Positions 1-25,374 of a DNA stretch of 25,374 nt are shown piece after piece (positions within the stretch are counted from its first letter, which is position 1; each line of letters opens with the position of its first letter). A program made the position numbers and the translations under genes. Where the stretch lies: the IMG/VR virus record IMGVR_UViG_3300037325_000094, positions 1 through 25,374 of that record. One strand, 5' to 3'. This DNA is from a virus. A model generated the notes under the pieces. The model had not been told where the DNA came from, searched no databases, and saw only the letters and a list, made by a program, of their open reading frames with translations.

Positions 1-1926
1 GGCACCGGCCAGCCCGCCTACCCTTGGCGCGGACGGATGACGTGTCACCCTGCGGCGGGCGAACCCGGCACCGTAGATATGACCGCAGCCGCCGCAACCC
101 AGGTCTCCAACTTCTTCGGCACGGTCGGAGCGAGCGACTTCGGCTGGGACGCGGCCAACAAGCGGGTGACCTACTCCGGCCCCGCAGGAGAGTGGTCTTT
201 CCGGCGTCACATCCTCCACATGGCGACTATCGCCGCAGAGGCGGGCGCAACGGACTTTCTGATCGGGACGGAAATGGTCGGCATGACCTCCATCCGGTCG
301 GCACGAACGGTTTTTCCCGCCGTCGATCAACTGATCTCCCTCTTGGGCCAGGTTCGGACAATCCTGGGCAGCGGGCCGAAAGTCAGCTATGCGGCGGACT
401 GGTCGGAATACCATAGCTACAGGCCCCAGGACGGGTCGAACGACATCCACTTCCCCCTGGACCCACTCTGGACAGACTCCCGGATCGACTATGTGGGGAT
501 CGACAACTACCTGCCGATCTCGGACTGGCGCGTGGGCACCGATCACCTGGACGCACGGCAAGGCTGGCAAACGACCTACGACCTGAACTACCTGCGGGAG
601 CGCATGGAGTCCGGGGAGGACTACGACTGGTTCTACGCCAGCCAAGCGCACCGGGACAGCCAAACGCGCACCCCGATCTTGGACGGCGCTTTTGGGGAAG
701 ACTGGATTTACCGGCAGAAGGACCTTCGCGGGTGGTGGGGGAACCAGCACCGGCCCCGGCTTAGTGGAGTCCAGCAGGCCGCGACCGCGTGGGTGGCCCA
801 AGGCAAGAAGATCGTCTTCACGGAATTCGGCTGTCCCGCCGTGAACCGGGGGGCGAACCAACCGAACGTGTTCGTGGACCCGAAGTCCTCCGAGAACAGC
901 TACCCCCGGTATTCCCTGGAGGTCCGCGATGACCTGATCCAGCGCGCCTACCTGGAAGCAACGATCACCTACTGGTCGGCAAACAACCCAGCTTCCGGGG
1001 TCTACAGCGGGCGGATGCTCGACCTGAACCTATGCTCCATCTGGTGTTGGGACGCTCGCCCCTTCCCGGACTTCCCGAACGCTGCGAGCTTCTGGGGTGA
1101 CGCCCCGAATTGGGAGACCGGCCATTGGCTGAACGGGAGGCTCCTGAAGCCTACCGGGCTGACCGGCCAGTCCGGGGAGTTCCGATATACCACGTCGCCG
1201 CGACCTGTCGAATACGGCGGCTACACCTATGAACCCGTCGTCGTGAAGCCGGGGAAGATGCGGGTCGAAGGAAACGCGGCCCAGAACAATCTGTCGATCA
1301 AGTTGCCCCGCACGAACCCCCTGTCGGAAGTTTTCAAGTCGCACCGACCCGCGCACCCGCTGACCCTGACGATCCTTCAAGGGCACCTGACGGACGGCAC
1401 CGGCCTGTTCTTGCCCCGCTGGACGGGCCGCATCGTCGGCTCCAAACGCAAGGGGGAGGAACTGGAGCTTACGGGCGCGCCGTGGACCGTGGCCCTGTCA
1501 CGCGCGGGTCTCCGGCGCAACTACCAGATCGGGTGCCCCCACGTCCTCTACGGCGAGTTCTGCCGCGCCAGCAAGGCCGCAGCGACCGTCGTCGGCACCG
1601 TCACGGCAGTCTCCGGTGCGACGATCACCCTGGCGGGCGGCTGGGAGGCCCACGCCAAGAACAAGTATATCACCGGGTTCGTGGAGTGGGATGGGTATAG
1701 CGGTCAAATCGAGCGCCGCCGCATCCAGGGAGTTAGCGGTAACACCCTGACCCTGACCGGCTATGTCAACGATCTGGTGGCCTCCGAAACCGTTTCGGTG
1801 ATCCTGGGGTGCAACCAGTCCGTCAACGACTGCCGGGACCTCCACAACAACATCGACAACTGCGGGGCCTGCCCCACGATCCCGACAAAGAACCCGATGG
1901 GTTCCAACACCAACAACTTCTACTAG
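1..1926 (+). CDS. GTA-like TIM-barrel / phage_BR0599 tail hub fusion (5' end missing)
   Basis: The reading frame is open from base 1 and starts mid-domain, so the true start lies left of the window. The first ~350 residues match the GTA TIM-barrel-like domain of host-specificity proteins: PWRGRMTCHP at the start, then DWSEYHSYRPQDG and DYVGIDNYLPISDW, near-diagnostic strings. From about nt 1180 the protein changes to a phage_BR0599/DUF2163-type tail hub domain, with NYQIGCPHVLYGEFC, a VSG-type beta repeat, GCNQSVNDC and CGACPTIPTKNP. The conserved cysteines (codons at 1534, 1561 and 1810 and a C-terminal cluster) recall those that bind an Fe-S cluster in the related lambda gpL; that role is inference here. 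In RcGTA these domains, as I recall, sit in separate proteins, so the fusion is notable. Role: central tail-tip hub contacting the cell surface. Confidence 0.88.
   Translation, partial: GTGQPAYPWRGRMTCHPAAGEPGTVDMTAAAATQVSNFFGTVGASDFGWDAANKRVTYSGPAGEWSFRRHILHMATIAAEAGATDFLIGTEMVGMTSIRSARTVFPAVDQLISLLGQVRTILGSGPKVSYAADWSEYHSYRPQDGSNDIHFPLDPLWTDSRIDYVGIDNYLPISDWRVGTDHLDARQGWQTTYDLNYLRERMESGEDYDWFYASQAHRDSQTRTPILDGAFGEDWIYRQKDLRGWWGNQHRPRLSGVQQAATAWVAQGKKIVFTEFGCPAVNRGANQPNVFVDPKSSENSYPRYSLEVRDDLIQRAYLEATITYWSANNPASGVYSGRMLDLNLCSIWCWDARPFPDFPNAASFWGDAPNWETGHWLNGRLLKPTGLTGQSGEFRYTTSPRPVEYGGYTYEPVVVKPGKMRVEGNAAQNNLSIKLPRTNPLSEVFKSHRPAHPLTLTILQGHLTDGTGLFLPRWTGRIVGSKRKGEELELTGAPWTVALSRAGLRRNYQIGCPHVLYGEFCRASKAAATVVGTVTAVSGATITLAGGWEAHAKNKYITGFVEWDGYSGQIERRRIQGVSGNTLTLTGYVNDLVASETVSVILGCNQSVNDCRDLHNNIDNCGACPTIPTKNPMGSNTNNFY
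1784..1798. repeat. CCGAAACCGTTTCGG palindrome, copy 1
   Basis: 15-bp inverted repeat (7 bp arms, one central base) inside the hub gene. Exact copies lie at 24353, 25067 (opposite orientation) and 25226; a shortened form, CCGAAACCGTTCGG, at 22078. Confidence 0.7.
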
Positions 1927-2160: not shown

Positions 2161-2369
2161 CGCACAAGCTGACAGTTTCGGACGTTCGGAAAGCCGGGTT
2201 CTGCGTCAAGGGCTTGAAAGAGTTCTATGAACTCCAGGGTTTCGAGAAGTCGTTCAAGGACTTCCTCCGGGAAGGCATGGACCTGGAGGAAATGCGGGTC
2301 CACCCTGATCCGCAGATCAAGCGCGCCGTCGAGTTCGCGGACCGTCGCATCGCCGGGGAGATCGTCTAA
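2157..2369 (+). CDS. small conserved tail protein upstream of J-like gene
   Basis: 70 aa, acidic and probably alpha-helical. The start chosen is the ATG overlapping the previous stop (ATGA) rather than an in-frame ATG 36 nt upstream, because coupling of this kind is the rule here. Its pattern (TVSDVRKAGFCVKGLKEF, then FLREGMDLEE) matches small proteins commonly found just before the tail-tip J-like gene in alphaproteobacterial phages. Its own stop overlaps the next start as TAATG. The molecular role is not known, and the assignment rests on position and pattern. Confidence 0.78.
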   Translation: MTHKLTVSDVRKAGFCVKGLKEFYELQGFEKSFKDFLREGMDLEEMRVHPDPQIKRAVEFADRRIAGEIV

Positions 2370-4798
2370 TGGGCGGCGGCGGGGGCAAAGGCGGCAAGAA
2401 AGGTGGGGGCAGCACCTACTACAAATACTTCATGTCGCTCCAGGCCGGTATCTGCGTCGGGCCGGTGGATGAACTGAAGTCGATCATCCTGGGGGACCGG
2501 GCGATCTGGGAGGGCACCATCACGCAATCCACCTTCATCAACGTGGACATCCCGGACGCCTTCGGAGGCGCGGTCCGAGAGGGCGGCGTTGGCGGCGGCA
2601 TCACCGTTATGATGGGGGAAGATCACCAGAAGATGCCCTTGGCCTTGCGGGAAAAGTTCGGGGCGAACTCGACCTTGATTCCCAGCTATCGCGGCATGAC
2701 CTCCCTGTTCTTCCACGAACCTGTCCAGCCGTATCTGGTCGGGCGTCCTCTGGCCGACGCGGACGACATGACTACCGAACAGATATTCCAGGGTGCCGCA
2801 CCGAACCCCCTGACAGGGCTGGCGATGCTTGGCATTTTCGGGGGCATCTTGGCAGGAGGTTTTCTTCCGGGAAGTCCGACGGCAGTCGCCGCTCGAAAAG
2901 GGTTCTACTGGCAAGCGAACAACCCGTATCTGCGGGACCTGAAAGTCGTGGCGACACGGCGCGCCAAGGGTCTCGACCGGCGCTACAGCACCATCTGGCG
3001 CGATGCTGCCGAGACCATCGCGGACACGAACTTCGCCCACATTATCTACGAGCTTCAGACGAACCGGGACTTCGGGGCGGGCCTGACGATCTCCAAGATC
3101 GACGTGGAGTCCTACGAACTGGCCGCGAAAACCCTCTACGACGAACGGTTCGGAGGCTCGATCAAGTGGATGCGGCAAGGCAAGGTCAAGGACATGATCC
3201 TTGAAATGCTCGACCACATCAACGCGGTTTGCTACGAGAACCCGCGCACCGGCTTGTCCACCCTGAAGCTCCTGCGGAACGACTACGACGTGGCCGATCT
3301 CCGGCTCGCCACCCCCAAGAACAGCCATGTGATCGACTTCCAGCGCAAGAGCGAAGAACTGGTCAACGAGATCGTCGCCACCTACACCGACGGCGTGACC
3401 TACGAAGAAGCGTCTGTCACGGTCCAGGACCTTTCCGGGATCGCGGCAGAGGGCAGCGTCGTCTCCACGGGCCGGAACTACTACGCCGTTCTCCGCGCGG
3501 ACCTGGCGAAGCAACTGGCGGAGCGCGATCTCCGGGCGGAGGGCTACCCCATCGCCACGGCGGAGGTCGAATTCTTCCGGGAGTTCTGGGACCTGAACCC
3601 CGGAGAGGTCATCAAGATCAATTCGCCGGAAGACTCCGACGTGACGCTTGTCATGCGCGTCATGCAGATTGACGACGACCCCGCAGGCACCGGCCCGATC
3701 AAGGCGCGGCTGGTGGAGGACATCTTCGGGCTGGACCTCCCGCCGTTCGTGGAGGTCCCCGATTCTCTGTTCGAAGACCCCGACGGCCCTCCCCAGCCTG
3801 CCGACTTCATCCAGCCCTTCACCATGCCTTTCACGCTGGCGAACCTGGCCGGTCTGGGGCCGTTCAACGAAGCGGACTACCCTGTCGCCTACTTGGGCGT
3901 CTTGGCCGCAACCGATCAGTTCGGGGTCAACGGGTTCAAGCTGTCGGGGAACAAGACCGACCCGCTGGGGGTCGAGACCTTCGGGGACTTCGGCACCGAA
4001 ACCATAGCGGCGCGGGGGACCCTGGCCGCAGACTTGGCGTTTGAAGCCTTGACCGACATGCCGTTCCCTGCGGCGATGACCTACGGCGAGACGGCCACGG
4101 CAGGGGATGTCCTGTTGATCGGTAGCGGGGCCGAAGAGGGCCTGGAGCTTGTGGGCGTTACCGCCGTCACGGGCACCGTCTTGTCGGTCCGGCGCGGCAT
4201 CCTGGACACCATCCCGCGCGAATGGGCGGCGGGGACTCCGGTGTGGGTGGTAGACCTGGGCGCGTCTACCCTCTGGGACCCGACCCGGCGCGCGGCGTTC
4301 GAGGAAGTGAACTTCAAGGTCCGCCCGGTGAACGCTGCCGGAATCCTCCCTGCCGGTTCTGCGGCGTGGCAGAGCTTCACCCTGTCGGAACGACCCTACC
4401 AGCCTTTCCGGCCTGCGGACGTTACGGTGGGCGGGATCGACCACGGTCAGCTTGACCTCTTGGCGGACGGGCCTGTAGTCGTGACCTGGAAGAACCGGGG
4501 CCGACCCTACGAAGACTCCAACTTTCTCCCCTGGAACGCGGCATCGGTTCCCGTGGAGCCGGGGCAGACCACGACAATCGAGATTATCAACGACGCTTTC
4601 GGCGCTGTCGTCACGACCCACGCGGGACTTACCGGGGAGACCTTCACCGTCCCGGCGATCTCCTTCACGGGACTTACGACGGCCAGGGTCCGGGTGCTTT
4701 CGGAGCGGGACGGTTTCCGCTCTTTCCAGGCCCAAGAGATCACGGTGACGCTGCCGGGTGGATATGGTATGAACTATGGCGCGGCCTACGGGCTGTAA
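2369..4798 (+). CDS. J-like tail tip / host-specificity protein
   Basis: 809 aa. Starts with a Gly/Lys-rich run, then a segment typical of tail-tip proteins (YFMSLQAGICVGPVDELKSI, later GFYWQANNPYLRDLKVVATR), a long central region rich in beta structure and a C-terminal beta domain with fibronectin-III-like spacing (RVLSERDGFRSFQAQEITV). It occupies the J position: after the hub and before the fibre genes. It should form the tip below the hub and carry or be the receptor-contacting part. It is shorter than lambda J (about 1130 aa). A hydrophobic Gly-rich stretch near residues 148-170 (GLAMLGIFGGILAGGF) is unusual and may be a membrane-insertion or loop element; this is speculative. Confidence 0.85.
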   Translation: MGGGGGKGGKKGGGSTYYKYFMSLQAGICVGPVDELKSIILGDRAIWEGTITQSTFINVDIPDAFGGAVREGGVGGGITVMMGEDHQKMPLALREKFGANSTLIPSYRGMTSLFFHEPVQPYLVGRPLADADDMTTEQIFQGAAPNPLTGLAMLGIFGGILAGGFLPGSPTAVAARKGFYWQANNPYLRDLKVVATRRAKGLDRRYSTIWRDAAETIADTNFAHIIYELQTNRDFGAGLTISKIDVESYELAAKTLYDERFGGSIKWMRQGKVKDMILEMLDHINAVCYENPRTGLSTLKLLRNDYDVADLRLATPKNSHVIDFQRKSEELVNEIVATYTDGVTYEEASVTVQDLSGIAAEGSVVSTGRNYYAVLRADLAKQLAERDLRAEGYPIATAEVEFFREFWDLNPGEVIKINSPEDSDVTLVMRVMQIDDDPAGTGPIKARLVEDIFGLDLPPFVEVPDSLFEDPDGPPQPADFIQPFTMPFTLANLAGLGPFNEADYPVAYLGVLAATDQFGVNGFKLSGNKTDPLGVETFGDFGTETIAARGTLAADLAFEALTDMPFPAAMTYGETATAGDVLLIGSGAEEGLELVGVTAVTGTVLSVRRGILDTIPREWAAGTPVWVVDLGASTLWDPTRRAAFEEVNFKVRPVNAAGILPAGSAAWQSFTLSERPYQPFRPADVTVGGIDHGQLDLLADGPVVVTWKNRGRPYEDSNFLPWNAASVPVEPGQTTTIEIINDAFGAVVTTHAGLTGETFTVPAISFTGLTTARVRVLSERDGFRSFQAQEITVTLPGGYGMNYGAAYGL

Positions 4799-5608: not shown

Positions 5609-6793
5609 ATGTTCGACACCTTTCAAGGGGCCGCAAAACGGCTCGAAGACCTGGACATTCCGCGCATCGGATCGCGGATTAACGTCGGGGAAGATGAAAT
5701 CCACGCCTTCATGGAAGTGGAGGCAAACGGTTCCGGGTTTGACGCCCAGGGCCGTCCGAAAGCTCTGTTCGAGCCGCACGTCTTCTACCGGAATCTTTCG
5801 GGGGAAGAGCGCCAGCGCGCCGTGGACGAAGGGCTGGCCTACGCCCGCTGGCGGCGGGGCAACTATCCCACCGATAGCTTTCCCCGGATCAAGGCGGCGA
5901 TGCGGATCAACCAGGCGGCGGCGCTGAAAGCGACCTCCTGGGGTGCGACGCAAATCCTGGGCGAGAACTACAGGATGGTCGGCTACGCCACGGTCGAAGA
6001 CATGGTGTCGGCCTTCATGGACGACGAAGAGAATCACCTGGAGGCGATGGTCAACTTCTTGATCGCCAGCGGCATTGACGACGACCTCCGCGAACACCGC
6101 TGGGAGATCGTAGCGCGGGTCTACAACGGTCCGAAATACGCCGAACACAACTACCACGGTCGCATGGCCGCAGCCTTCGCCAAGTGGCAACGGATCGCGG
6201 ACACGCCATACCCCGGCACGACTCCCTCCGCACCCGCACCCCGGTATCCTGCCGTGCAGATCGGCGCGAACGGTTTTGTGGTGAAGCACCTTCAGGAAAC
6301 CTTGGACGCGCTGGGCTACCGAGTCGGCATGATCGACGGAAAGTTCGGCCCTTCGGTCCGAGCGGCGGTGCTGGCGTTCCAAGCCGATAACAACCTGACG
6401 ATGGACGGAACCGTGGGGGACGAAACCTGGAGCGCGCTGGAGAACGCGCCCCGGCCCCTGCCGATCTCGGAAGAGCGCGCCACGGCTACGGTCAGCGACC
6501 TCCGCGACGAAGGGTCGCGCACCGTTCAGACTGCGGACATCGCCCAAGTCGGCGGTGCCGTGGTGGCCGTGGGTGGGGCGCTGGGCACCGTGGAAGAAGT
6601 TCTGGGCACCGGAGAGCAAGCAACCGGCCTCCTGGGCCGTGCCACGGCGCTGATCGAGCCTCTGACCGGCTTCCTTCAAGCGAACTGGCAAGTGGCCCTG
6701 TTGGCTGTCGGCGCGCTGGTCATCTGGTCCGCGTGGAAGCAAAAGCGAATCAGGCTGGACGATCACCGGACCGGCGCGAACAAGAGGCTCTGA
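5609..6793 (+). CDS. endolysin: N-acetylmuramidase + peptidoglycan-binding domain + C-terminal membrane anchor
   Basis: 394 aa. Residues ~25-200 match the DUF3380 N-acetylmuramidase family (FMEVEANGSGFDAQGRPKAL, then LFEPHVFYR, with the conserved acidic residue at E38 and ATSWGATQILGENY). Residues ~210-275 form a PG_binding_1 repeat (GFVVKHLQETLDALGY, GKFGPSVRAAVLAFQ, DGTVGDETW). After an Ala/Gly-rich helix, residues ~360-376 form a clear transmembrane segment (WQVALLAVGALVIWSAW) followed by a basic tail. Cleavage of the glycan backbone is the known family activity. The C-terminal anchor is uncommon for endolysins. There is no N-terminal signal. GGAG lies 9 nt before the ATG. Spanin genes follow directly. 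Confidence 0.88.
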   Translation: MFDTFQGAAKRLEDLDIPRIGSRINVGEDEIHAFMEVEANGSGFDAQGRPKALFEPHVFYRNLSGEERQRAVDEGLAYARWRRGNYPTDSFPRIKAAMRINQAAALKATSWGATQILGENYRMVGYATVEDMVSAFMDDEENHLEAMVNFLIASGIDDDLREHRWEIVARVYNGPKYAEHNYHGRMAAAFAKWQRIADTPYPGTTPSAPAPRYPAVQIGANGFVVKHLQETLDALGYRVGMIDGKFGPSVRAAVLAFQADNNLTMDGTVGDETWSALENAPRPLPISEERATATVSDLRDEGSRTVQTADIAQVGGAVVAVGGALGTVEEVLGTGEQATGLLGRATALIEPLTGFLQANWQVALLAVGALVIWSAWKQKRIRLDDHRTGANKRL

Positions 6794-7700: not shown

Positions 7701-8251
7701 AGCCCCCAAAGCCCCTTGCCTCCGAGACCTTTGTCCACGTTCTGAACCGAGTCTTGTTCGCCGCTGTTTTGGCCCTGTTCGCCGGTATCGTCCTCCTGAC
7801 GAACAACTGGTATCACCTGAACCGGGGCTTCATCGAAATGCGCCTGTTTCCCGTAGTGGAAGACGGCACGGCACGAAACTGGACACGGGAGGAAGACGGG
7901 TTCTGGTCTGCCCAGGTCTACCTGAACAAAGTCCGTCCGGGGTGCATCTACGTCCCGGATCAGATCGTCACCGCCATCGGCACCACGCCCTACGGCTACA
8001 CGTTTGAAGCCTCCGTTGTCTACATCGGGGACCGCACCCCGAACAGCAACCGGAACGAAGGCTGGCAACGTCTGGACGACCGGGTGGAGTTCCAGGACCC
8101 TCTGGCCGTGGTGGGTTCGACCGTCACCATGCACGTCCTCCACGACTGCCATGATTCGCCCCCGACCGCCTCCCAGATCGGGCCGTTCGTCATCGGGCAG
8201 GATAGCCCGTGGCCCGACTCCGGCCAGTGGACCCCCGTGCTGCCGCAATAG
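7697..8251 (+). CDS. single-span membrane protein of the lysis region, unknown function
   Basis: 184 aa from a TTG start overlapping the previous stop (TTGA). The N-terminal segment (about residues 19-36) is a good membrane helix; the remaining ~145 residues look like a soluble beta-rich domain, probably periplasmic, with two cysteines (in RPGCIYVP and HDCHDS) that could form a disulfide. I do not recognise the family. It could be a lysis accessory or a superinfection factor acting at the membrane. The TTG start is supported by coupling and by the absence of another early start preserving the helix. Confidence 0.65.
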   Translation: MKPPKPLASETFVHVLNRVLFAAVLALFAGIVLLTNNWYHLNRGFIEMRLFPVVEDGTARNWTREEDGFWSAQVYLNKVRPGCIYVPDQIVTAIGTTPYGYTFEASVVYIGDRTPNSNRNEGWQRLDDRVEFQDPLAVVGSTVTMHVLHDCHDSPPTASQIGPFVIGQDSPWPDSGQWTPVLPQ

Positions 8252-8277
8252 GCTATACAGTTCCGCCCAAGTATCGT

Positions 8278-8314
8278 AAGCTCCCGGAGGGTTTGACCGC
8301 CATCCTGGGAGCTT
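8278..8314 (+). promoter_or_regulatory. hairpin covering the ribosome site of the next gene
   Basis: AAGCTCCC (8278-8285) and GGGAGCTT (8307-8314) pair perfectly over 8 bp around a 21-nt loop. The right arm contains GGGAG, the likely Shine-Dalgarno sequence for the ATG at 8319. In mRNA the helix would hide this site. It lies in the one larger gap of the late arm (8252-8318), between the lysis and fibre genes. It lacks a U-tract, so it is more likely a translation control or processing site than a terminator. Confidence 0.5.
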
Positions 8315-10010: not shown

Positions 10011-11981
10011 ATGCCGCGCCGCTATCTTGTCGATCTGATCGGGCGTTACCTGGGCTTGGGTGGCGCGACTGGCGACGCCACGAACCCTCTTAGCGTCCGG
10101 GGGACCGGCGCATTGTTCGACGGAAACACGACCGGCCACCAGGTCAGGATTAACAAGTCCACCCTGGGCCAGACGGCGAGCTTCCTCTTCCAGCAGGCAT
10201 ACAGCGGGCGGGCCGAGTTCGGAAATCTTGGCGACAACGACTTCACCCTGAAGACATCGGCCAACGGCTCGACGTGGAACGATGCCTTCACCGTGGCCGC
10301 AGCGACCGGCGTGACCGACTTCAAGCAAGCTCCGGCATACCTGGGCCAGCCCCTCTACCACACCGGCAGCTTCGCCATCGCCAACTATGCGGCGCTGACC
10401 GGGGCGACGTTCTCCGGCGACGTGGTGGCCCCGAACCTGGTTCGGAACAACGCCAACAACAACCTGGGACAGTTCCTCCTGGAGACCCCGAACGGCCATC
10501 ACGGCGGCTACGGGAACTCGAACGGCGGCGGCACCGCCTGGGGCGCGGACATCTGGGGCCTGGGATCGAACCACCTGGGCGCGGGCTTTGGGGCGCTCTA
10601 CGCGCTGGGGTCCTACGGCTTGGCATGGCTGCGGGTGACAAACGCCGGGACGCTCGCGGACGCGGGCGAAGGTCTCTACGTCCGCCGCAACAGTGTGACC
10701 ATCGCAGCTTTCGGGCACATCGGAGCCTACTTCGGCCTGAAGCTGAAGGTGATCGGGGACTCCCTTCTCGCCAACGTCGGGATCGGCGGGGCCACGCCAG
10801 ACGCTACGAACCGGCTGTCCGTCAACACGCCCGCCGTGTTGCTGAACAACGCGGGCACCAGCATCGACATGAAATTCAACAAGAACCTGGAGGCAAACGA
10901 CGCGGCGCTGACGTTCCAGCAGGGCTTCACAACCCAGGCGCTTATGGGCCTCCTGGGCAGCAACGACTGGACCCTGAAGGTCGGTCCCAGCTTCCTTACC
11001 GCGATCACCGTCAACCGGACGACCGGCGCGGTCTCTATGCCCAATACCACGATCACCGCTACGCCTGCCGGGGTAGATAACGAAGTCCAATATCGGAACG
11101 GTTCGTCTCTGGGCGCGGCTTCTATGGTGCGGATTGGCGCGGCGGGGAACCTTCTCCTGGGGAGCAACAGCGCCCAGCCGACCTTGCCCCCGGACGACTA
11201 CCTCCAGTTCTACGCTCGCCGCAGGGCCGGTGCAGACTGGCCGGAAATCCAACGCCCGAACGGACGGGAGATTCCCCTGGGGCCGCACATGGGCCTTAAC
11301 CGCGTCGCCTGGTGGGCACCTTCGGTCAGCACCACGGTCATCGTCAACGGAATCCCCCGAACCGCCGTGGGCACCGTAGCGACGCCCGCTTTGGCCGCGA
11401 CGAACCTGTCCACGTCGATCCGGCGCTGGAGGGTTACTTCCGCCATCACGGCGAGCGCAATGGCCGACGAACGCTCCGCCGTAACCTCTTGCTGGCGGGG
11501 CAACGCCGCTGGCCTGGGTGGGTTCACTTATACGAACCGTATCTCCCTGGTGACGCTCCAGCCGCTCGCCGTGGCCTACTTCGGCCTCTTGGCGTCGGTA
11601 GCTGCCCTGGCGGGCACCCAGACGGTCGCGGCCTTGGTCAACTGCATCGGGTTCGGGTTCACCAACGGCACCGACACCAACTGGAATTTGATCTTCAACG
11701 ACGCCAGCGGCACAACGACCCAAACAAACCTGGGGGCCAGCTTCCCGGTCAATAACACGACGAACGTCTACTCGATCATCATCTACGCGCCGCCGAACGG
11801 CACGTCGGTCTGGGTCCGCATGGTCAACGAAACGACCGGCGCAGTCTTCGAACAAGAACTGACGACGAACATCCCGACGAACACTACGTTCCTTTCTGTC
11901 AGGAACTTCATGCACAACGGCGGAGAGACGGCGGCGGTGGCCTACGATTGCTCCGGCGTGTATCTCGAAACCGATTACTGA
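10011..11981 (+). CDS. large tail fibre / receptor-binding protein with duplicated module
   Basis: 656 aa. Two related ~95-residue modules are visible: one near the N-terminus (LGGATGDATNPLSV, SFLFQQAYSGRAEFGNLGDN, DFTLK) and one in the middle (IGGATPDATNRLSV, ALTFQQGFTTQALMGLLGSN, DWTLK), each followed by a short helix-like stretch. Such repeats are typical of prophage tail-fibre shafts. The last ~270 residues, from YLQFYARRRAGADWPEIQRP onward, form a distinct beta domain common in marine and GTA-related phages (NCIGFGF, NLIFNDASG) and probably bind the receptor. AAGGGG precedes the ATG. It is the largest fibre in the window. Confidence 0.82.
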   Translation: MPRRYLVDLIGRYLGLGGATGDATNPLSVRGTGALFDGNTTGHQVRINKSTLGQTASFLFQQAYSGRAEFGNLGDNDFTLKTSANGSTWNDAFTVAAATGVTDFKQAPAYLGQPLYHTGSFAIANYAALTGATFSGDVVAPNLVRNNANNNLGQFLLETPNGHHGGYGNSNGGGTAWGADIWGLGSNHLGAGFGALYALGSYGLAWLRVTNAGTLADAGEGLYVRRNSVTIAAFGHIGAYFGLKLKVIGDSLLANVGIGGATPDATNRLSVNTPAVLLNNAGTSIDMKFNKNLEANDAALTFQQGFTTQALMGLLGSNDWTLKVGPSFLTAITVNRTTGAVSMPNTTITATPAGVDNEVQYRNGSSLGAASMVRIGAAGNLLLGSNSAQPTLPPDDYLQFYARRRAGADWPEIQRPNGREIPLGPHMGLNRVAWWAPSVSTTVIVNGIPRTAVGTVATPALAATNLSTSIRRWRVTSAITASAMADERSAVTSCWRGNAAGLGGFTYTNRISLVTLQPLAVAYFGLLASVAALAGTQTVAALVNCIGFGFTNGTDTNWNLIFNDASGTTTQTNLGASFPVNNTTNVYSIIIYAPPNGTSVWVRMVNETTGAVFEQELTTNIPTNTTFLSVRNFMHNGGETAAVAYDCSGVYLETDY

Positions 11982-11992
11982 AGGAGAAGTCC

Positions 11993-12250
11993 ATGTCGAG
12001 CATGGTCGCAACGAACACCTGGGCCGGACCGATTCCCTTGGACGGGGCAAAGCTGGTTCAGGTCAGGGACGGAGGGCCTATCCTGGTCTGCGTCGAAGAG
12101 CCGGAAGATGTCAACGACGGCTTTCTGATCCCGGAAGGTGGGCACCACGTCTTCACGGGGTCCCCCCTCTACAACTCGATCTGGATCAGATCGCGCCGGA
12201 CAAACATCGACGCGGATGTCTACATCGGCGGCACGACCATCCAGGGTTAG
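11993..12250 (+). CDS. small beta-rich protein at end of late operon, unknown function
   Basis: 85 aa with a beta-sandwich-like pattern (TWAGPIPLDGAKLVQV, IWIRSRRTNIDADVYIGG). A good ribosome site (AAGGAG) starts right at the end of the fibre gene, 6-7 nt before the ATG; an earlier in-frame ATG lies inside the fibre gene and is not favoured. It is the last gene of the late arm. Proteins of this size and position are sometimes decoration or tail-tip proteins, but nothing in the sequence proves this. Its stop overlaps that of the converging gene. Confidence 0.68.
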   Translation: MSSMVATNTWAGPIPLDGAKLVQVRDGGPILVCVEEPEDVNDGFLIPEGGHHVFTGSPLYNSIWIRSRRTNIDADVYIGGTTIQG

Positions 12251-12257
12251 ACCCTGG
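12241..12257. terminator. convergent palindrome overlapping both stop codons
   Basis: CCAGGGT-TAG-ACCCTGG is a perfect 7-bp inverted repeat with a 3-nt centre. It contains the stop codons of the + strand gene (TAG 12248-12250) and of the - strand gene (TAA read on the - strand, 12247-12249). It marks the meeting point of the late and early arms. No U-tract follows on either side, so termination by this element alone is uncertain. Confidence 0.45.
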
Positions 12258-13017
12258 TGAGTTCCGGGGGGAGCTTCACGCCGAAGTCCTCCTGGGCCTC
12301 TTCCGCCCGACGAATTCCCCGCAGCACGGTAGAGGGCGCGACGTGGCTTCGACGCGCGATCTCCCGCATGGACACGCCGTCCTTAGCGTGGGCTTTCCAC
12401 CATTCCATATCCCGGTTCGCCTGGACTTCTGTCCCCGCGAAGATCAGCCGGTAGCCTTCACCCCAGACGTTTTCGATCCTGAACCCGGCCTTCTCGATCT
12501 TAGGCCGCAGCTTGCATACGAACACGTCGATGATCTTGGCGTCGGGAACCTTGTCAATTTCATGCGCGTCGTAGAGCCTGTTCAGGATGGTGTCCCTCCG
12601 AACGACTTCCCCCTTCGACCGCTGAAGGATCAGAAACAGTTTGGCTTCCTTCTGGGTGGCGTAGAACCGCTGCATGACCTCCGACTGTTCGGGGATCGAG
12701 TCCCCCGTCAGATAGTCTACCGTTGCCTTCAGGTCTTCGATGTCCGGGGACTCTTCGAGGTCCCGCCAGAACAGGCCCTCCGTCTCTTCCAGCGCGAACA
12801 ACAGGACGCTAAGGATCGCTTTGGCAGACCGCGCGGGCCAGCCCATCTTCTCTTCCATGACCTCCAGGGGGGTCTCCAAGATGATGACCTCCCGCAAGAT
12901 GCGGAAGATCGTCGGGCTGACGTTGAAGGAGTTCGGAGATTGGAAGAACTTGAACGCCGTCAGCGTTTGCTGTTCGGTCAGGAACTTTATTGCGCGGAGC
13001 CGGTGGACGTTCTGCAT
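12247..13017 (-). CDS. transcription regulator with CtrA/PhoB-type winged helix and C-terminal helix-turn-helix
   Basis: 256 aa, no receiver domain. Residues ~121-192 are a PhoB/OmpR-type winged helix closest in pattern to the DNA-binding domain of CtrA: GEVVRRDTILNRLYD, then KIIDVFVCKLRPKIEKAGFR and IENVWGEGYRL, against the CtrA pattern KIIDVFICKLR followed by IETVWGRGY. Residues ~215-238 (GVSMREIARRSHVAPSTVLR) form a second helix-turn-helix. The N-terminal ~80 residues are helical and may hold another DNA-binding or dimerisation domain. AGAGG lies 5 nt before the ATG. It is the distal gene of the early arm, next to the late genes. Without a phospho-acceptor it would act constitutively: a phage switch, or a competitor of host CtrA sites (inference). 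Confidence 0.82.
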   Translation of the reverse strand: MQNVHRLRAIKFLTEQQTLTAFKFFQSPNSFNVSPTIFRILREVIILETPLEVMEEKMGWPARSAKAILSVLLFALEETEGLFWRDLEESPDIEDLKATVDYLTGDSIPEQSEVMQRFYATQKEAKLFLILQRSKGEVVRRDTILNRLYDAHEIDKVPDAKIIDVFVCKLRPKIEKAGFRIENVWGEGYRLIFAGTEVQANRDMEWWKAHAKDGVSMREIARRSHVAPSTVLRGIRRAEEAQEDFGVKLPPELTRV

Positions 13018-13041: not shown

Positions 13042-13269
13042 TTAACCCAGGAGTTTCCGCGCTCGCTCCAGTGGCGTCAAGGTCGAACCGGAACAATCTG
13101 GGCAAGAGTGCCACCAGCCGCCTTGTTTGTCCGGCTTGACAACCCAGGAGTCCGCTTTCGCGGCGGCAAGGAGCGCCGGGAATTCGTGCTGGTCGAACTT
13201 GTCGTCGCCGTAGGTGTCCCCGCAGTCATCGCAGACCATGCGGACAGAGGTCCCGCGCCGGTCGATCAT
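13042..13269 (-). CDS. small zinc-ribbon protein
   Basis: 75 aa with two CxxC pairs, CDDC near residue 13 and CPDC near residue 56, which should bind one zinc ion. It starts by overlapping the stop of the preceding gene (ATGA). Middle residues contain Trp/His (DSWVVKPDKQGGWWHSC). Role unknown: small zinc ribbons in phage early regions often bind host polymerase or other host proteins or nucleic acid, but nothing here decides between them. Confidence 0.75.
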   Translation of the reverse strand: MIDRRGTSVRMVCDDCGDTYGDDKFDQHEFPALLAAAKADSWVVKPDKQGGWWHSCPDCSGSTLTPLERARKLLG

Positions 13270-13760
13270 TCCACACCCCCGTCCTGCCCCAACCAGGTGC
13301 CATCGGCGCGCTGGGCGACGGCCTGACGCGGCCCTGGGGTGTATGGAAGGCCAAGAGCGGCTTCAGGCACCCCCACGGCTCGAACCAGGTCTTCCCTGGC
13401 TTGAAGCGTCGCCTTGACGATCCTGTCGATAGCCTCCGGGTTCTGGGGGAGGAACTGGATGGACGGGGTGGGGTTTTCCCGGCGAGAACGGAACAGCGGG
13501 TGGGTGGCGATCTCGCCGCCGCAGGCCATGTAGCCCGCCCCATCTGTCCAGTGGTCCGCGTGGGTCGGGTTCGACTTGATCCGCGCCACCTTCAGCAGCG
13601 TCATCATGGCCCCGACATCGTGGGGCGAAACCGTTCGTCCGAGGTAGGTGGACCAGAACTCCGCGATAGTGCCGAAGTTTTCCTCCATTTCCCCGTGATC
13701 GGCGGCACGGTCCACGGTGACGTGGCCTTTGGCGGTATCGAGAATTTCAGCACGGTTCAT
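13266..13760 (-). CDS. DUF6378-like phage protein
   Basis: 164 aa. The pattern NRAEILDTAKGHVTVDRAAD, HGEMEENFGTIAEFW, DVGAMMTLLKVARIKSNP and HADHWTDGAGYMACGGEIA matches the widespread phage DUF6378 family, whose function is unknown. The ATG at 13760 is chosen over a GTG one codon earlier because AAGGAG lies 7 nt before it and it overlaps the preceding stop (TGATG). The C-terminal part is Pro/Gln-rich and less conserved-looking. It may act in nucleotide or DNA metabolism, since homologues often lie among such genes. Confidence 0.85.
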   Translation of the reverse strand: MNRAEILDTAKGHVTVDRAADHGEMEENFGTIAEFWSTYLGRTVSPHDVGAMMTLLKVARIKSNPTHADHWTDGAGYMACGGEIATHPLFRSRRENPTPSIQFLPQNPEAIDRIVKATLQAREDLVRAVGVPEAALGLPYTPGPRQAVAQRADGTWLGQDGGVE

Positions 13761-14380
13761 CACAGGACTCCTTCGATGTCGGGGTGGTAGGTGGCAGCGG
13801 GTGGCCGGTTGCCCACATAGACGGGGCCTGCGGCGTGGTCAGCGTCGAACAGATACCAGGCGGCGTTATCCTTGCCGGTGTTCTCGGAGCCTTCGATCCA
13901 CTTCACCCTGCCGACGGAGACAATCTTGACGCAATGCGGCTCTAGTTCGCGGAAATAGACGTTGTGCATGAAGTCTGCGGCCAGCAGCATCCAAGTCGGC
14001 CTGAAGCGCATAAGGTGGGCTATGATGCCGACCGACGGCCAACCGTCCGGGGTGCCTTGGGGGCGGCTCTTGACCGGCATGGGCCACGGGGGATTGGAGA
14101 TCACCGCGTCGCAGCCGTCGAAGTCCTCTTCCCGAAGCATTTCCACCGGCCAGGTTCCAGCGCGCCCGATCATGTCCCCCTGCGGCTCCAGGTCCCAGGA
14201 TCGCGGACAAGACCATCCACGGGCCTCCAGGACCCGGATGATCGCGCCGTCCCCGCACATCGGCTCTGCGAACGTGCGGATGTCCTGGATGTGGGGGATA
14301 AGCCGCAGGATCGGCGGCGGCGGCGTGGCATAATAATCTCGATCCCGGCGCTCGAACTGGCCGTCGCTTCGTTTTGCCAT
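13760..14380 (-). CDS. DNA methyltransferase-like protein (N6-adenine type)
   Basis: 206 aa. It begins with a DYYATPPPP segment seen in phage adenine methyltransferases, has an AdoMet-binding motif EPMCGDGAI (residues 39-47) and the catalytic-type motif NPPW (96-99). The motif order and size fit a stand-alone Dam-like or ParB-associated phage methyltransferase. No restriction partner is nearby, so it more likely protects phage DNA or alters regulation than belongs to a restriction-modification pair. GGAG precedes the ATG by about 8 nt. The target sequence cannot be read from the protein. Some members of this group are inactive, so activity is inferred from intact motifs. Confidence 0.8.
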   Translation of the reverse strand: MAKRSDGQFERRDRDYYATPPPPILRLIPHIQDIRTFAEPMCGDGAIIRVLEARGWSCPRSWDLEPQGDMIGRAGTWPVEMLREEDFDGCDAVISNPPWPMPVKSRPQGTPDGWPSVGIIAHLMRFRPTWMLLAADFMHNVYFRELEPHCVKIVSVGRVKWIEGSENTGKDNAAWYLFDADHAAGPVYVGNRPPAATYHPDIEGVL

Positions 14381-15971: not shown

Positions 15972-16157
15972 TCAAAGCCCTCCCGTGGCGTGAGAGTGCC
16001 AATGCGCTGTCGCCAGCAGCAGAGCTTCGGAGGCGGTCACCCCCAGGCCATGATGCCGAAAACTGTCGCCCCGTATGTCAGCTTGAAATAGGCGCGGGTC
16101 TGACTCTTCCCGATCCCGGTTCACCTGACGCTCCCAGACTTGGACCCTGATATTCAC
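15972..16157 (-). CDS. unknown small early protein (GTG start)
   Basis: 61 aa. The start is taken as the GTG overlapping the ParB-like gene's stop (GTGA), because AGGAGG stands 8 nt upstream of it; the longer ATG frame would overlap parB by 31 nt. Contains Arg-rich segments and a run of histidines near the C-terminus (ATAHWHSHATGG). No family recognised. Confidence 0.6.
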   Translation of the reverse strand: MNIRVQVWERQVNRDREESDPRLFQADIRGDSFRHHGLGVTASEALLLATAHWHSHATGGL

Positions 16158-16984
16158 TTCAGGGCCTCCTGGACGCGCGCCCACAGTTCGGCGGAGACAA
16201 CCAGATCGTAGACCAGTTCGTCCTCCCCGTAGGTGCCCTGGGGCACGTCGGTCGCGGCAACCAGTTCGGCCAGGAGGCCCTTATGATCGACCTTCGGCTT
16301 CTTCGGCACGGGCTTCTTCTTGGTCTTCTCGACGTGACGCGGACCGGCTTTCGCCTTGCCCTCTGCCGTGGCCCGCTCGACCGCCGCCTTGACCTTGCTG
16401 TCGATCTCCGCGCCGTCCTTGGCCTTGGCGACGATCCGCTGGACCACGGTCGCGGACACCTTGCCGGAGCGGATCAGCTTCTTGGTGGTTTCGGGGGCCT
16501 GGTTCAAGGACATGATCTGCCGAACCCGCTCGATTGTGATGCCGCCACGGGCCGCGATGTCGCGCTCCGCCCAGCCGAAGCCCACCAGCCGACCGAAGAC
16601 CTGGGATTGTTCCAGAACGGTGAAAGGCTTGCCGGAGTTCCGGGTGATCTGGGAGGCGAAGCGGTCCGCTTCGGAGGCGTGGCGCGGTTCGGTCTGGACC
16701 GGCACGGTCTTGATCTCGACGCCTTGCTCCAGCAGCAGCCGCACGGCGCGGAGGCGGCTTTCACCATTGGTCAATACGGGCTGGCCGTCCTCCATGAAAA
16801 CGGTCAGAGGCTCCAGGACGCCAACCTCCCGGATGGATTCGGCCAGCGTCTCGACGTGGCGCATGTTCTCTGGATCGCTGAAGTCGCGCGCGTTCCACGC
16901 CTCCTTCACCACGATCAAGGTGGGGTCAATTCGGAAGAGGTCTGACCGCGCTGCGGCAAGCCCCTGGATTCCTGATTTTGTCAT
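16154..16984 (-). CDS. ParB/Spo0J-like protein
   Basis: 276 aa. An N-terminal ParB/sulfiredoxin-type domain (residues ~20-115) carries the conserved NARD and LAESIREVGVLEPLTV segments and the ParB box variant NGESRLRA (73-80). A helix-turn-helix region follows (about 125-160, GWAERDIAARGGITIERVRQ), then helices and a Lys/Pro-rich linker before a compact C-terminal domain. Chromosomal ParB binds CTP through this box and slides on DNA; phage versions may partition plasmid-like prophages, act as regulators or as nucleases. No parA is visible in the window. AGAAGGA precedes the ATG in a 16-nt leader identical to that of the DUF932-like gene. A tRNA-like RNA lies in its leader. Confidence 0.85.
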   Translation of the reverse strand: MTKSGIQGLAAARSDLFRIDPTLIVVKEAWNARDFSDPENMRHVETLAESIREVGVLEPLTVFMEDGQPVLTNGESRLRAVRLLLEQGVEIKTVPVQTEPRHASEADRFASQITRNSGKPFTVLEQSQVFGRLVGFGWAERDIAARGGITIERVRQIMSLNQAPETTKKLIRSGKVSATVVQRIVAKAKDGAEIDSKVKAAVERATAEGKAKAGPRHVEKTKKKPVPKKPKVDHKGLLAELVAATDVPQGTYGEDELVYDLVVSAELWARVQEALK

Positions 16985-22743: not shown

Positions 22744-22812
22744 GGGAATTTTTGGGTCCGGCCAGGTATTTCAAGTAAGGGATTTTTGGAACGGGCCAGG
22801 TATTTCAAGTAA
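22744..22812. repeat. two copies of a 34-bp direct repeat
   Basis: GGCCAGGTATTTCAAGTAA occurs at 22760-22778 and 22794-22812, each preceded by a similar GGGA-A/T-TTTTTGG segment, giving two ~34-bp units in tandem. These AT-richer units stand out in a GC-rich setting upstream of the 101-aa gene. They may be iterons or operators. Confidence 0.75.
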
Positions 22813-22850
22813 CGGGCCTGGTGGTCCGGGGTCGGGGGTCTGGCCCTATA

Positions 22851-22912
22851 CGCGCGCGCCCGCGCACCCGCACCCGCGCGCACCCGCACCCGCGCGCGCC
22901 CGCAGGCGGATG
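22851..22912. repeat. alternating CG/CA low-complexity tract
   Basis: A tract of GCGCGC, GCACCC and GCGCGCCC words, mostly alternating purine and pyrimidine. Such DNA can adopt Z-form. No ribosome site or credible gene covers it. Confidence 0.6.
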
Positions 22913-22963
22913 CTGCGGCGCGGCAATGGCGGCGCGGCGTTACCGCTAACACGGACTCCCGGC

Positions 22964-23103
22964 TCCCGGCGCTCCCCCGGCTCCCGGCGCTCCCCCGGCT
23001 CCCGGCTCCCGGCTCCCGGCGCTCCCCCGGCTCCCGGCTCCCGGCGCTCCCTCGGCTCCCGGCTCCCGGCTCCCGGCTCCCGGCTCCCGGCTCCCGGCTC
23101 CCG
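22964..23103. repeat. GGCTCCC heptamer array (G-quadruplex-capable on - strand)
   Basis: About 18 copies of GGCTCCC or the variants GGCGCTCCCCC and CGGCTCCC. The - strand reads GGGAGCC repeated, giving many GGG runs separated by 4 nt, a canonical four-stranded G motif. The array also keeps several frames open by chance. Confidence 0.85.
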
Positions 23104-23292
23104 ACGGTCCAGAGCGCGCCAAGGGGAGCCGCTGGAGCGCGTCCGGGACGTGGGCAGGGGGAAGCGGTCCCGACGGTCCAGAGCGCGCCAAGGGGAGCCG
23201 CTGGAGCGCGTCCGGGACGTGGGCAGGGGGAAGCGGTCCCGACGGTCCAGAGCGCGCCAAGGGGAGCCGCTGGAGCGCGTCCGGGACGTGGG
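23102..23292. repeat. 69-bp tandem repeat, 2.8 copies
   Basis: Units start at 23102, 23171 and 23240 with CGACGGTCCAGAGCGCGCC; copies look identical until the third ends at GGGACGTGGG (23292). Because 69 is a multiple of 3, all frames repeat 23-residue peptides, which explains long but meaningless ORFs here. The words GGGACGTGGGCAGGGG and CCGCTGGAGCG recur in the repeats at the right end. Confidence 0.88.
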
Positions 23293-23342
23293 AAGCCGGA
23301 GTCTAGGGGACAGGGGACTCTTGACGGCTCCCGGAATCAAGA

Positions 23343-23367
23343 AAGCCGGGGAACGTGTCCCCGGCTT
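23343..23367 (-). terminator. strong hairpin terminator after the right-hand cassette
   Basis: AAGCCGGGGA (23343-23352) and TCCCCGGCTT (23358-23367) form a perfect 10-bp stem with a 5-nt loop, 4 nt beyond the stop of the last gene of the cassette. The following - strand sequence has only a weak T tract (TCTTGATT). Confidence 0.65.
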
Positions 23368-23371
23368 CCGT

Positions 23372-23506
23372 TCATTGCTGGATCATATACGCGAAGAGTC
23401 CCGCCCATATAATCGGGGACAGATTCCCGGACGCAAGCGCCGCAACGGCTCCAGCGGTCAACACGAGTCCGCCCACGATACGCGCCACGCGGCGCGCCGG
23501 ACTCAC
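23372..23506 (-). CDS. 44-aa membrane protein (GTG start)
   Basis: GTG at 23506 overlaps the upstream stop (GTGA). The 44 residues contain two hydrophobic segments: RIVGGLVLTAGAVAALASG and LSPIIWAGLFAYMIQQ. Translational coupling and the terminator right after its stop support it. Function unknown. Confidence 0.62.
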   Translation of the reverse strand: MSPARRVARIVGGLVLTAGAVAALASGNLSPIIWAGLFAYMIQQ

Positions 23507-23739
23507 GGGGGACCGCCTTCCCCACGGGACTCAAGAATTGCCAGAGCTTGCGCGGCGCTTGGCGCGTGGGGGGAGTGTCGCGCGCATAGCTGGAGCGCGC
23601 GCCGTCCCCATAGCTCCAGCGGAGCGGGATAGCATCCGGCGCGGAAGCCGTCCGGGGACACATAGCCGGGAGCTTCGAACACGGGGACAAGCGCGCGACG
23701 CCACGCGGGGACGGGGGAAGGCTTGCGACGGCGCGCCAT
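23503..23739 (-). CDS. unknown small basic protein
   Basis: 78 aa, starting at a TAATG overlap with the upstream gene and ending in a GTGA overlap with the next. The sequence MARRRKPSPVPAWRRALVPV, then FEAPGYVSPDGFRAGCYPAP, is Arg/Pro-rich. Another - strand frame (23337-23690) is open across it but lacks coupling. No family recognised. Confidence 0.55.
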   Translation of the reverse strand: MARRRKPSPVPAWRRALVPVFEAPGYVSPDGFRAGCYPAPLELWGRRALQLCARHSPHAPSAAQALAILESRGEGGPP

Positions 23740-24098
23740 TAGGACACATAAACGCGCGAGTCGTCCCCCCGGTAGATGTCCGACTCGCGGAAGGCGGAAG
23801 CGGAATCGGAAAGCCGTTGCGCGATAGCTCCCGCGCGTCCCTTGAATCCCCTATCCCAAAAGCCGACTCCGTGGCCGTTGCGCGTATACCAAAAGTCACG
23901 TCCAGCGGCTTCGCGGTCATAGTCCGACTCCGCGCGCTCCAGAGCGCGAGTCGCGGAGCCAAACGGCGCGGAGCTTGTCCGCGCGCGGCTTATGGCATTG
24001 CGGCGCGCGTGGCGATAGGCGCGGAGCAATAGAGTCCGCGCGTCCGGGAGTTGATCGAAGCGGACTCCCGGCTCCGCGAAGAATTCAAAGGCTTTCAT
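23739..24098 (-). CDS. phage hypothetical protein with DFWYTRNGHGVGFWDRG motif
   Basis: 119 aa. The C-terminal half (GRDFWYTRNGHGVGFWDRG, then FRESDIYRGDDSRVYV) matches a common but uncharacterised phage family with DFWLTRNGHGAGFWDR. The N-terminal half is helical and Arg/Ala-rich. TGGAG lies about 10 nt before the ATG. The 24099-24197 gap upstream holds only short G-rich words. The gene's DNA is rich in GCGCG and GANTC compared with the left part of the window. Confidence 0.75.
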   Translation of the reverse strand: MKAFEFFAEPGVRFDQLPDARTLLLRAYRHARRNAISRARTSSAPFGSATRALERAESDYDREAAGRDFWYTRNGHGVGFWDRGFKGRAGAIAQRLSDSASAFRESDIYRGDDSRVYVS

Positions 24099-24197
24099 TG
24101 TGCAAGGCTCCAGAGATAAGCGGACAAAAGGGACAGGGACGGGGACAGGGGGACAGAAAGCGCGAAGAAAAGCGCGAATTCCCCCACGGCGCGGAGC

Positions 24198-24695
24198 TTA
24201 CACATAGCCGGACCACGCGCGACCGTATGCCAAGCCGTCCAGAGTCTCCGCTTCGAAGTGATCGAAGAATTCGACGGCTTCGACGGCGCGCGCGCAACGG
24301 TCCGAAACAAGCGCGAAGGCGCGCGCCAGAGCGTCCCCGCATACCACGAGTCCCGAAACCGTTTCGGGAGCGTCCGAGTCGTCCCCGTCGAAGCCGTCGA
24401 AGCCGTCCAGCGGCTCCCCTTCCGCGTCGAATTCGGAAGCGTCGAACATTTCCCCGGCGACGTGATTCCCGGCTTCGATTGCCAAGCCTTCCGCGTCATC
24501 CGAAACCGTCGCGCCGTTGCGCGCGCGCTCCACCATATCCAAGCCGGTGACTACCGCGTCATTCGTGGAGTCGGTGTAGTATGCGGCGGACTCGTTGCCG
24601 GGGAAGCCTACGCGAATTTCCCCGTCAAGGCGCGTCACCTTGAGTCCAGCGGCGCGGAGAGTCTTAGCGGCTTGCGTGTAGCTTTGTTCTTTCAT
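24198..24695 (-). CDS. unknown acidic protein, first gene of right-hand cassette
   Basis: 165 aa, acidic (Asp/Glu/Ala-rich), with the aromatic-acidic stretch LDGFDGFDGDDSDAPETVSG and a helical C-terminal part (FFDHFEAETLDGLAYGRAW). The N-terminal 60 residues (SYTQAAKTLRAAGLKVTRLD, EIRVGFPGNESAAYYTD) look globular. AAGGA lies 9-10 nt before the ATG. A promoter (24767-24794) lies ~70 nt upstream. The gene contains the CCGAAACCGTTTCGG palindrome at 24353. I recognise no family. Acidic composition would fit a DNA mimic, but that is guesswork. Confidence 0.7.
   Translation of the reverse strand: MKEQSYTQAAKTLRAAGLKVTRLDGEIRVGFPGNESAAYYTDSTNDAVVTGLDMVERARNGATVSDDAEGLAIEAGNHVAGEMFDASEFDAEGEPLDGFDGFDGDDSDAPETVSGLVVCGDALARAFALVSDRCARAVEAVEFFDHFEAETLDGLAYGRAWSGYV
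24353..24367. repeat. CCGAAACCGTTTCGG palindrome, copy 2
   Basis: Exact copy within the 165-aa gene; the arms extend by one base pair on each side (CCC...GGG, 24352-24368). Confidence 0.7.
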
Positions 24696-24766
24696 GGCTT
24701 TGTTTCCTTGTTTCGGGGGGACGTGTCCGGGGACCGATCCCCCATAGCTCCCGCCTTGATGTCCCT

Positions 24767-24794
24767 ATTCTACAGAATTCCCCTTAACAGTCAA
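24767..24794 (-). promoter_or_regulatory. promoter for right-hand cassette
   Basis: On the - strand TTGACT (24794-24789), 16 bp, TAGAAT (24772-24767). The -35 lies in ACAGTCAA-CTA-ACAGTCAA (direct repeat, 24788-24805), sharing the GTCAACT motif with the two early promoters. A short AT-rich island in G-rich surroundings. Confidence 0.66.
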
Positions 24795-25066
24795 CTAACA
24801 GTCAAACGCAATCAACACGGGGGACAATATCCCGGAAGCCGGTCCCGTGGGGACAGGGGACTCTAGACGCGCTCCAGCGGGGACCGGGGACGTGGGCAGG
24901 GGGACCGCTGGAGCGGATCGAAGGGGAGCCGGGGACGTGGGCAGGGGACACGCGGAGCGGATCGAAGGGGACGCCATGCCGGGGACGTGGGCAGGGGACA
25001 CGCGGAGCGGATCGAAGGGGACGCCATGCCGGGGACGTGGGCAGGGGGGAGCCGTGGGCAGGATAG

Positions 25067-25081
25067 CCGAAACGGTTTCGG
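25067..25081. repeat. CCGAAACGGTTTCGG palindrome, copy 3
   Basis: Reverse complement of the other copies, in the G-rich repeats at the right end, where it interrupts the G-rich words. Confidence 0.7.
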
Positions 25082-25225
25082 ACGCCATGCCGGGGACGTG
25101 GGCAGGGGGAGCCGTGGGCAGGGGGACGCCATGCCGGGGACGGATCGAAGGGGACGCCATGCCGGGGACAGGGGGACCGCTGGAGCGGGGACCGGGGGAC
25201 GCCATGCGGGGACCTATGCGCCAAG

Positions 25226-25240
25226 CCGAAACCGTTTCGG
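25226..25240. repeat. CCGAAACCGTTTCGG palindrome, copy 4
   Basis: Exact copy, 159 bp from copy 3, also in the G-rich terminal repeats. Confidence 0.7.
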
Positions 25241-25374
25241 GGATTGCGCCACGCCATGCCGGGGACGGGAGCGCGAAGCCGGGGAGTCCGTGGGCAGGGG
25301 TTGCCGGGGACGGGGGGACCGCTTGGAACGGGGGACCGTCGAAGGGGGGAGTCGTCCTATGGCGGGAACGTGGG

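Follow-up and report, generated by a model that had tools for sequence, protein, structure and literature searches.

The window, the whole 25.4-kb IMG/VR virus record that was analysed, carries two blocks of genes that run towards each other (Table 1). Tail and lysis genes on the plus strand extend to position 12250, and a tightly packed minus-strand block comes down from about 25 kb to its final gene, which encodes the protein called here the regulator. The earlier note had placed this ORF at 12247-13017; these coordinates are right, with an ATG start codon at 13017 on the minus strand, and the ORF is real, with homologs at the protein level. Coding on the plus strand across the same interval was considered and is unsupported. 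The gene does lie at the border with the late genes, as had been claimed, because it closes the minus-strand block and overlaps, stop codon on stop codon, the ORF that ends the plus-strand late block. The late promoter falls outside the window.

Table 1. Features of the regulator and of the genes around it (coordinates are those of the window; residues are those of the regulator).
Feature	Coordinates	Strand	Basis or remark
Regulator ORF	12247..13017	-	256 aa; ORF, homologs, Pfam, double GafA profile match
Five-helix N-terminal domain; DUF6456 match at residues 33-77	12766..13017, residues 1-84	-	Pfam, profile scans, model
CtrA-type OmpR-family winged helix, receiverless	12445..12660, residues 120-191	-	PF00486 (Trans_reg_C) E 1.6e-13; tree
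Predicted recognition helix KIIDVFVCKLRPKIE	12493..12537, residues 161-175	-	Residue comparison; helix 161-175 in model
C-terminal HTH, homologous to the N-terminal DnaA-like HTH of GafA / GafY	12283..12414, residues 202-245	-	Profile matches
Terminal ORF of plus-strand late block	11948..12250	+	Stop (12250) overlaps regulator stop; convergent
Small ORF immediately upstream of regulator, within minus-strand block	13042..13269	-	ORF list
ORF related to DNA methyltransferase family, minus-strand block	13760-14380	-	
ParB-like gene in minus-strand block	16154-16984	-	
Late gene, GTA TIM-barrel-like domain (GTA gp15-type tail protein), near contig left end	37..1926	+	PF13547 E 3.5e-129; tail PHROGs
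Late tail protein, Phage-tail_3	2369..4798	+	Profile matches
Late lysis gene, N-acetylmuramidase endolysin with peptidoglycan-binding domain	5609..6793	+	Profile matches

Three modules make up the regulator, in the order GafA/GafZ-type DNA-binding module, receiverless CtrA-type winged helix, and GafA-N/GafY-type helix-turn-helix (HTH). A model of the whole protein (pLDDT 74, moderate) has three domains with a low-confidence linker at residues 83-103, and a Foldseek search with this model is dominated by OmpR-type domains.

The first module, which the earlier note had left as an unknown N-terminal domain, is identified by Pfam and profile scans: it corresponds to the sigma-like DNA-binding module at the C-terminus of GafA/GafZ, proteins that directly activate gene transfer agents (GTAs) or act on them as antiterminators. 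Pfam DUF6456, the GafA/GafZ family (PMC9638019, PMC9765227), matches the regulator above its gathering cut-off (E 2.5e-6, profile positions 87-131 of 136) and was found again in the homologs scanned. In GafA this DNA-binding module is C-terminal, but here it occupies the N-terminus (residues 33-77). A profile of nine phage N-termini matches the C-terminal end of each of 16 host DUF6456 ORFs, the best with E 3e-9. Over 296 Rhodobacteraceae genomes the N-terminal profile found one phage-type ORF (E 9e-35, in genome G446); the remaining matches, to columns 31-82, are only to ORFs of 265-546 aa, mostly of GafA size, in 84 of these genomes. Modelled alone, the domain (pLDDT 89.5) forms five helices with an HTH at 51-58/65-80. 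Structure comparison gave it only middling matches (sigma region 4, UPF0122 and KorA), which are not taken as proof, because this HTH arrangement is common; the first two agree with the sigma-like HTH that GafZ is reported to have (PMC11150451).

The middle region, about residues 117-192, had been judged closer to CtrA than to general PhoB-type regulators, and its CtrA type is upheld both by phylogeny and by diagnostic residues. In a tree of 66 rows and only 76 columns, the winged helices of nine phage proteins are placed together with the CtrAs of RDJL phages and of hosts, against 27 other OmpR-type paralogs from three alphaproteobacterial genomes, with support of 100/100; branching within the CtrA side is poorly resolved. 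The strings KIIDVFVCKLR and IENVWGEGYRL are residues 161-171 and 181-191 of the protein. CtrA-specific letters are matched at K161, I162, F166, C168, K169 and, in the wing, W185. Ten of the 23 diagnostic columns agree with CtrA, in a comparison that is partly circular because the host CtrA set was gathered by a pattern from the phage motif; the rest of the winged helix is largely diverged. The CtrAs L138, L141 and L149 were recovered independently by an unbiased PF00486 scan.

CtrA, a response regulator of Alphaproteobacteria and a master regulator in these bacteria, shares with the phage regulator the winged helix, the recognition helix and the wing tryptophan. In contrast to CtrA, with its N-terminal receiver and phospho-acceptor aspartate, the phage protein has a DUF6456-type domain at its N-terminus, and other DNA-binding modules are present on both flanks of the winged helix. 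The Pfam scan gave no receiver match, so the reported absence of this domain holds. Uncoupling from the host phosphorelay, also proposed earlier, would follow from the loss of the receiver, and it has a parallel in two prophages (see below) whose CtrA receiver is without a phospho-acceptor.

The extra C-terminal HTH of the earlier note is present as well (Pfam gives weak HTH-family matches at about 210-240) and can now be named as the N-terminal HTH of GafA (GafY). A profile of this module matches the N-termini of RDJLphi1 gp38 (E 5e-18) and RDJLphi2 gp33 (E 4e-15), full-length host GafAs (E 7e-15 and 2e-14) and, more weakly, separate GafY-like ORFs at other DUF6456 loci. Where GafA loci had been found by the N-terminal profile alone, the HTH module lies near the start of the same ORF in 13 of 14. 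The DnaA-like HTH that is N-terminal in GafA is therefore found, but at the other end of the regulator (residues 202-245).

A profile of full-length GafA, built from 13 GafA ORFs, matches the regulator twice. Profile positions 332-358 match residues 51-77 (20.4 bits) and positions 25-64 match residues 205-244 (31.4 bits), against a maximum of 3.9 bits in a shuffle control (n=1000). The GafA centre (profile positions about 65 to 331), which binds RNA polymerase omega in R. capsulatus, has no match in the regulator with the full GafA profile. Because one full-length profile matches twice in swapped order, the regulator is, judged by its sequence, a permuted GafA that lacks its central part and holds, between its two ends, the DNA-binding domain of a CtrA without receiver. 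Both terminal DNA-binding modules are homologous to those of R. capsulatus GafA (rcc01865) and Caulobacter GafY/GafZ; unlike these proteins, the regulator has the two in swapped order, carries a CtrA winged helix between them, is missing the GafA centre and is phage-encoded.

Homologs of the regulator are found in other phages of Alphaproteobacteria with 35-61% identity. For example, Roseobacter phage RDJL3, Paracoccus phage vB_PmaS-R3 and 21 Rhodobacter capsulatus phages encode proteins of 43-46% identity across most of the length, and the homolog in IMG/VR contigs L007/L008 is 61% identical overall (63% in the best segment). The proteins of vB_PmaS-R3 and RDJL3 have all three modules, like that of the window, yet they are annotated only as a 'CzcR-like response regulator' in spite of having no receiver; no mention of the composite make-up of the R3 protein was found in the R3 genome paper (PMC4641407). 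A single-sequence scan of viral contigs gave no homologs, and an alignment query was needed to recover seven IMG/VR contigs, R3 itself among them and two of the seven encoding the same protein. In the genome-contig scan the matches listed are mainly host CtrA, and full-length prophage copies may be missed. The position of the gene differs among phages: it is convergent with the late genes in the window and in RcMcDreamy, precedes them in R3 and closes the late block in RDJL3.

Other ARRANGEMENTS of the same modules, split or joined differently, occur in related phages and prophages. In RDJLphi1, a GafA-type gene (gp38, HTH ... DUF6456) is followed after a gap of ~390 bp by a receiverless CtrA gene (gp37), and RDJLphi2 is alike; the GafA and truncated CtrA of RDJLphi1 were already noted by Fogg 2019 (PMC6363796). 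RDJLphi1 has the three modules of the regulator, a receiverless CtrA and GTA-like structural genes, but as two genes in GafA order and not as one permuted protein of 256 aa. The first two modules are fused in gp58 (201 aa) of Rhodobacter phage RcMcDreamy, whereas the HTH module, unlike that of the window protein, is split off as a separate small gene, gp67 (E 1.3e-13). In RDJL6 a separate DUF6456-type ORF of 141 aa (L005 3121-3543), which carries the annotation 'ATPase', lies upstream of the phage ctrA; the HTH half with which GafA begins was not found within the stretch read, so this gafA gene may be truncated or split. Two prophage-like loci in Rhodobacteraceae genome G370 (L192 6458-8184 and L193 5970-7684) have a CtrA homolog that overlaps the gafA gene in an operon, beside GTA-type tail and endolysin genes. 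This prophage CtrA keeps its receiver but without the phospho-acceptor aspartate and the conserved lysine. Decoupling from the phosphorelay would thus exist in two forms, decayed and deleted, since the G370 receiver has lost its acceptor and the regulator its receiver.

A CtrA-type winged helix without a receiver is also encoded in a Mesorhizobium genome (L019, ORF around 8001-8306, 123 aa), and it is the highest-scoring genome-contig match to the phage profile among the matches listed (71.8 bits). A weak DUF6456-like, gafA-like gene in MW462191.1 (L156, 'Bacteriophage sp.', ~76043-76849) was set aside. This record is probably a bacterial contig and not a phage, because its gafA-like gene has a sulfur-acceptor (SufE-like) gene as neighbour, an arrangement shared with host genomes.

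The tail gene with a GTA TIM-barrel domain (GTA_TIM) accompanies the regulator in 8 of the 10 records that carry it, the exceptions being a 14-kb fragment and G152. This is an association and not proof, because GTA_TIM is present in 62 phage records overall, including phages where the regulator was not found. In RcMcDreamy-type phages an insertion of ~180 residues interrupts the domain, which is matched in two pieces (L004, record MW677518.1 38523-39959).

Canonical CtrA boxes, which the earlier note had proposed for a binding check, find no support in the phage genomes. TTAA-N7-TTAA is absent from the window and from the records of eight of nine relatives, and in the same records a spacing of 7 nt between TTAA halves is not enriched over other spacings. 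Searches for CtrA half-sites were also without enrichment. With the canonical box not enriched, half-sites or an altered site may be what the CtrA module recognises. A dyad search of the intergenic regions of R3, RDJL3 and G153, a weak search with poor gene calls on the GC-rich window, gave no convincing motif.

In hosts, the C-terminal part of GafA binds the -35/-10 region and the N-terminal part binds either side of it, and GafA is thought to act together with CtrA at the gafA promoter and the late GTA promoters (PMC9638019). GafZ acts as an antiterminator together with NusA/G/E and sits on the DNA between -10 and -35 (PMC11150451). The joining of the CtrA DNA-binding part with both end parts of GafA suggests that the regulator is probably a phosphorelay-independent activator of late genes that works like GafA plus CtrA, and by homology and position a late-switch role is plausible. 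One phage chain would then pack three DNA-binding modules that switch on GTAs in host bacteria. Made late in the early/middle programme, the regulator would occupy the late promoter(s), its GafZ-like module on the core promoter and its HTH and CtrA modules at flanking sites, and would direct the host's RNA polymerase to the GTA-like structural and lysis genes; as with GafZ, it might promote terminator read-through too. Without a receiver it would act independently of CckA/ChpT phosphorylation. Contact with RNA polymerase would need another source, because the omega-binding centre of GafA has no match in the regulator. Points against an activator are the lack of CtrA-box enrichment and of any other shared motif, the variable gene position, and a late promoter that lies beyond the window.

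The N-terminal module is homologous to GafZ, for which loading between -10 and -35 and an antitermination complex with NusA/G/E are reported (PMC11150451), and this also fits a protein that is chiefly an antiterminator (GafZ/Q-like). It would load at the late promoter and then accompany RNA polymerase through the late operon and past its terminators; the CtrA and HTH modules would serve only as loading sites. However, the two proteins have in common only the DNA-binding part of DUF6456 (the profile positions given above), and such a role is considered unlikely, if worth keeping in mind. A different target is conceivable as well. The regulator retains a CtrA-type recognition helix and has lost the receiver, and the scarcity of canonical CtrA boxes in the phage genomes might mean that its CtrA-type sites are on the host chromosome. 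It could then be a takeover factor that competes with or replaces host CtrA/GafA and shuts down or redirects the CtrA regulon (motility, cell cycle, host GTA) during infection. A CtrA competitor would need less than three fused promoter-binding modules, however, and CtrA half-sites may still be present in the phage, which makes this quite improbable. Least credible, and very improbable indeed, is a repressor or early/late switch that holds the late genes off until it is displaced: a multi-HTH DNA-binding protein at the early/late border would suit the part, but those host homologs of the terminal modules that have been characterised act as activators, and no lysogeny module was recognised beside the regulator within the window.

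GafA and a receiverless CtrA were already known as separate neighbours in RDJLphi1; no description of a single-chain permuted GafA/CtrA fusion was found in the open-access literature searched. Since this single-chain form exists beside split and intermediate ones in related phages and prophages, it counts as gene-fusion evidence for the modules working as one unit. GafA and CtrA act jointly on GTAs, and the regulator bears both on how they do so and on the origin of the circuit; the fusion is a clue to the evolution of gene transfer agents from phages. It is rather doubtful, but conceivable, that the regulatory module which RcGTA-like agents had in their phage ancestor lives on in these phages, in which case the fusion could drive the host GTA cluster, or GafA plus CtrA could replace the fusion, and infection and GTA production would share one phosphorelay-free switch. 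Cultured phages of Paracoccus, Roseobacter and R. capsulatus provide this small protein for tests of GTA-type promoter opening and of whether CtrA phosphorylation is dispensable.

The window also contains repeated sequences. A near-perfect palindrome, CCGAAAC[C/G]GTTTCGG, is present in four exact copies (window 1784, 24353, 25067 and 25226), three of them at the upstream end of the minus-strand block, and with up to 3 mismatches there are 10 matches against 1.5 expected. Given the ParB-like gene at 16154-16984 and the copies at the upstream end of the block, a parS-like or operator site is possible. Two copies of the palindrome are found in the closest relative, record G149. The stretch at 22745-25300 is rich in repeats and has few clear genes; it includes a 34-nt tandem pair (22745-22812), a 69-nt unit present three times (23099-23305) and many GGGGAC-rich repeats.
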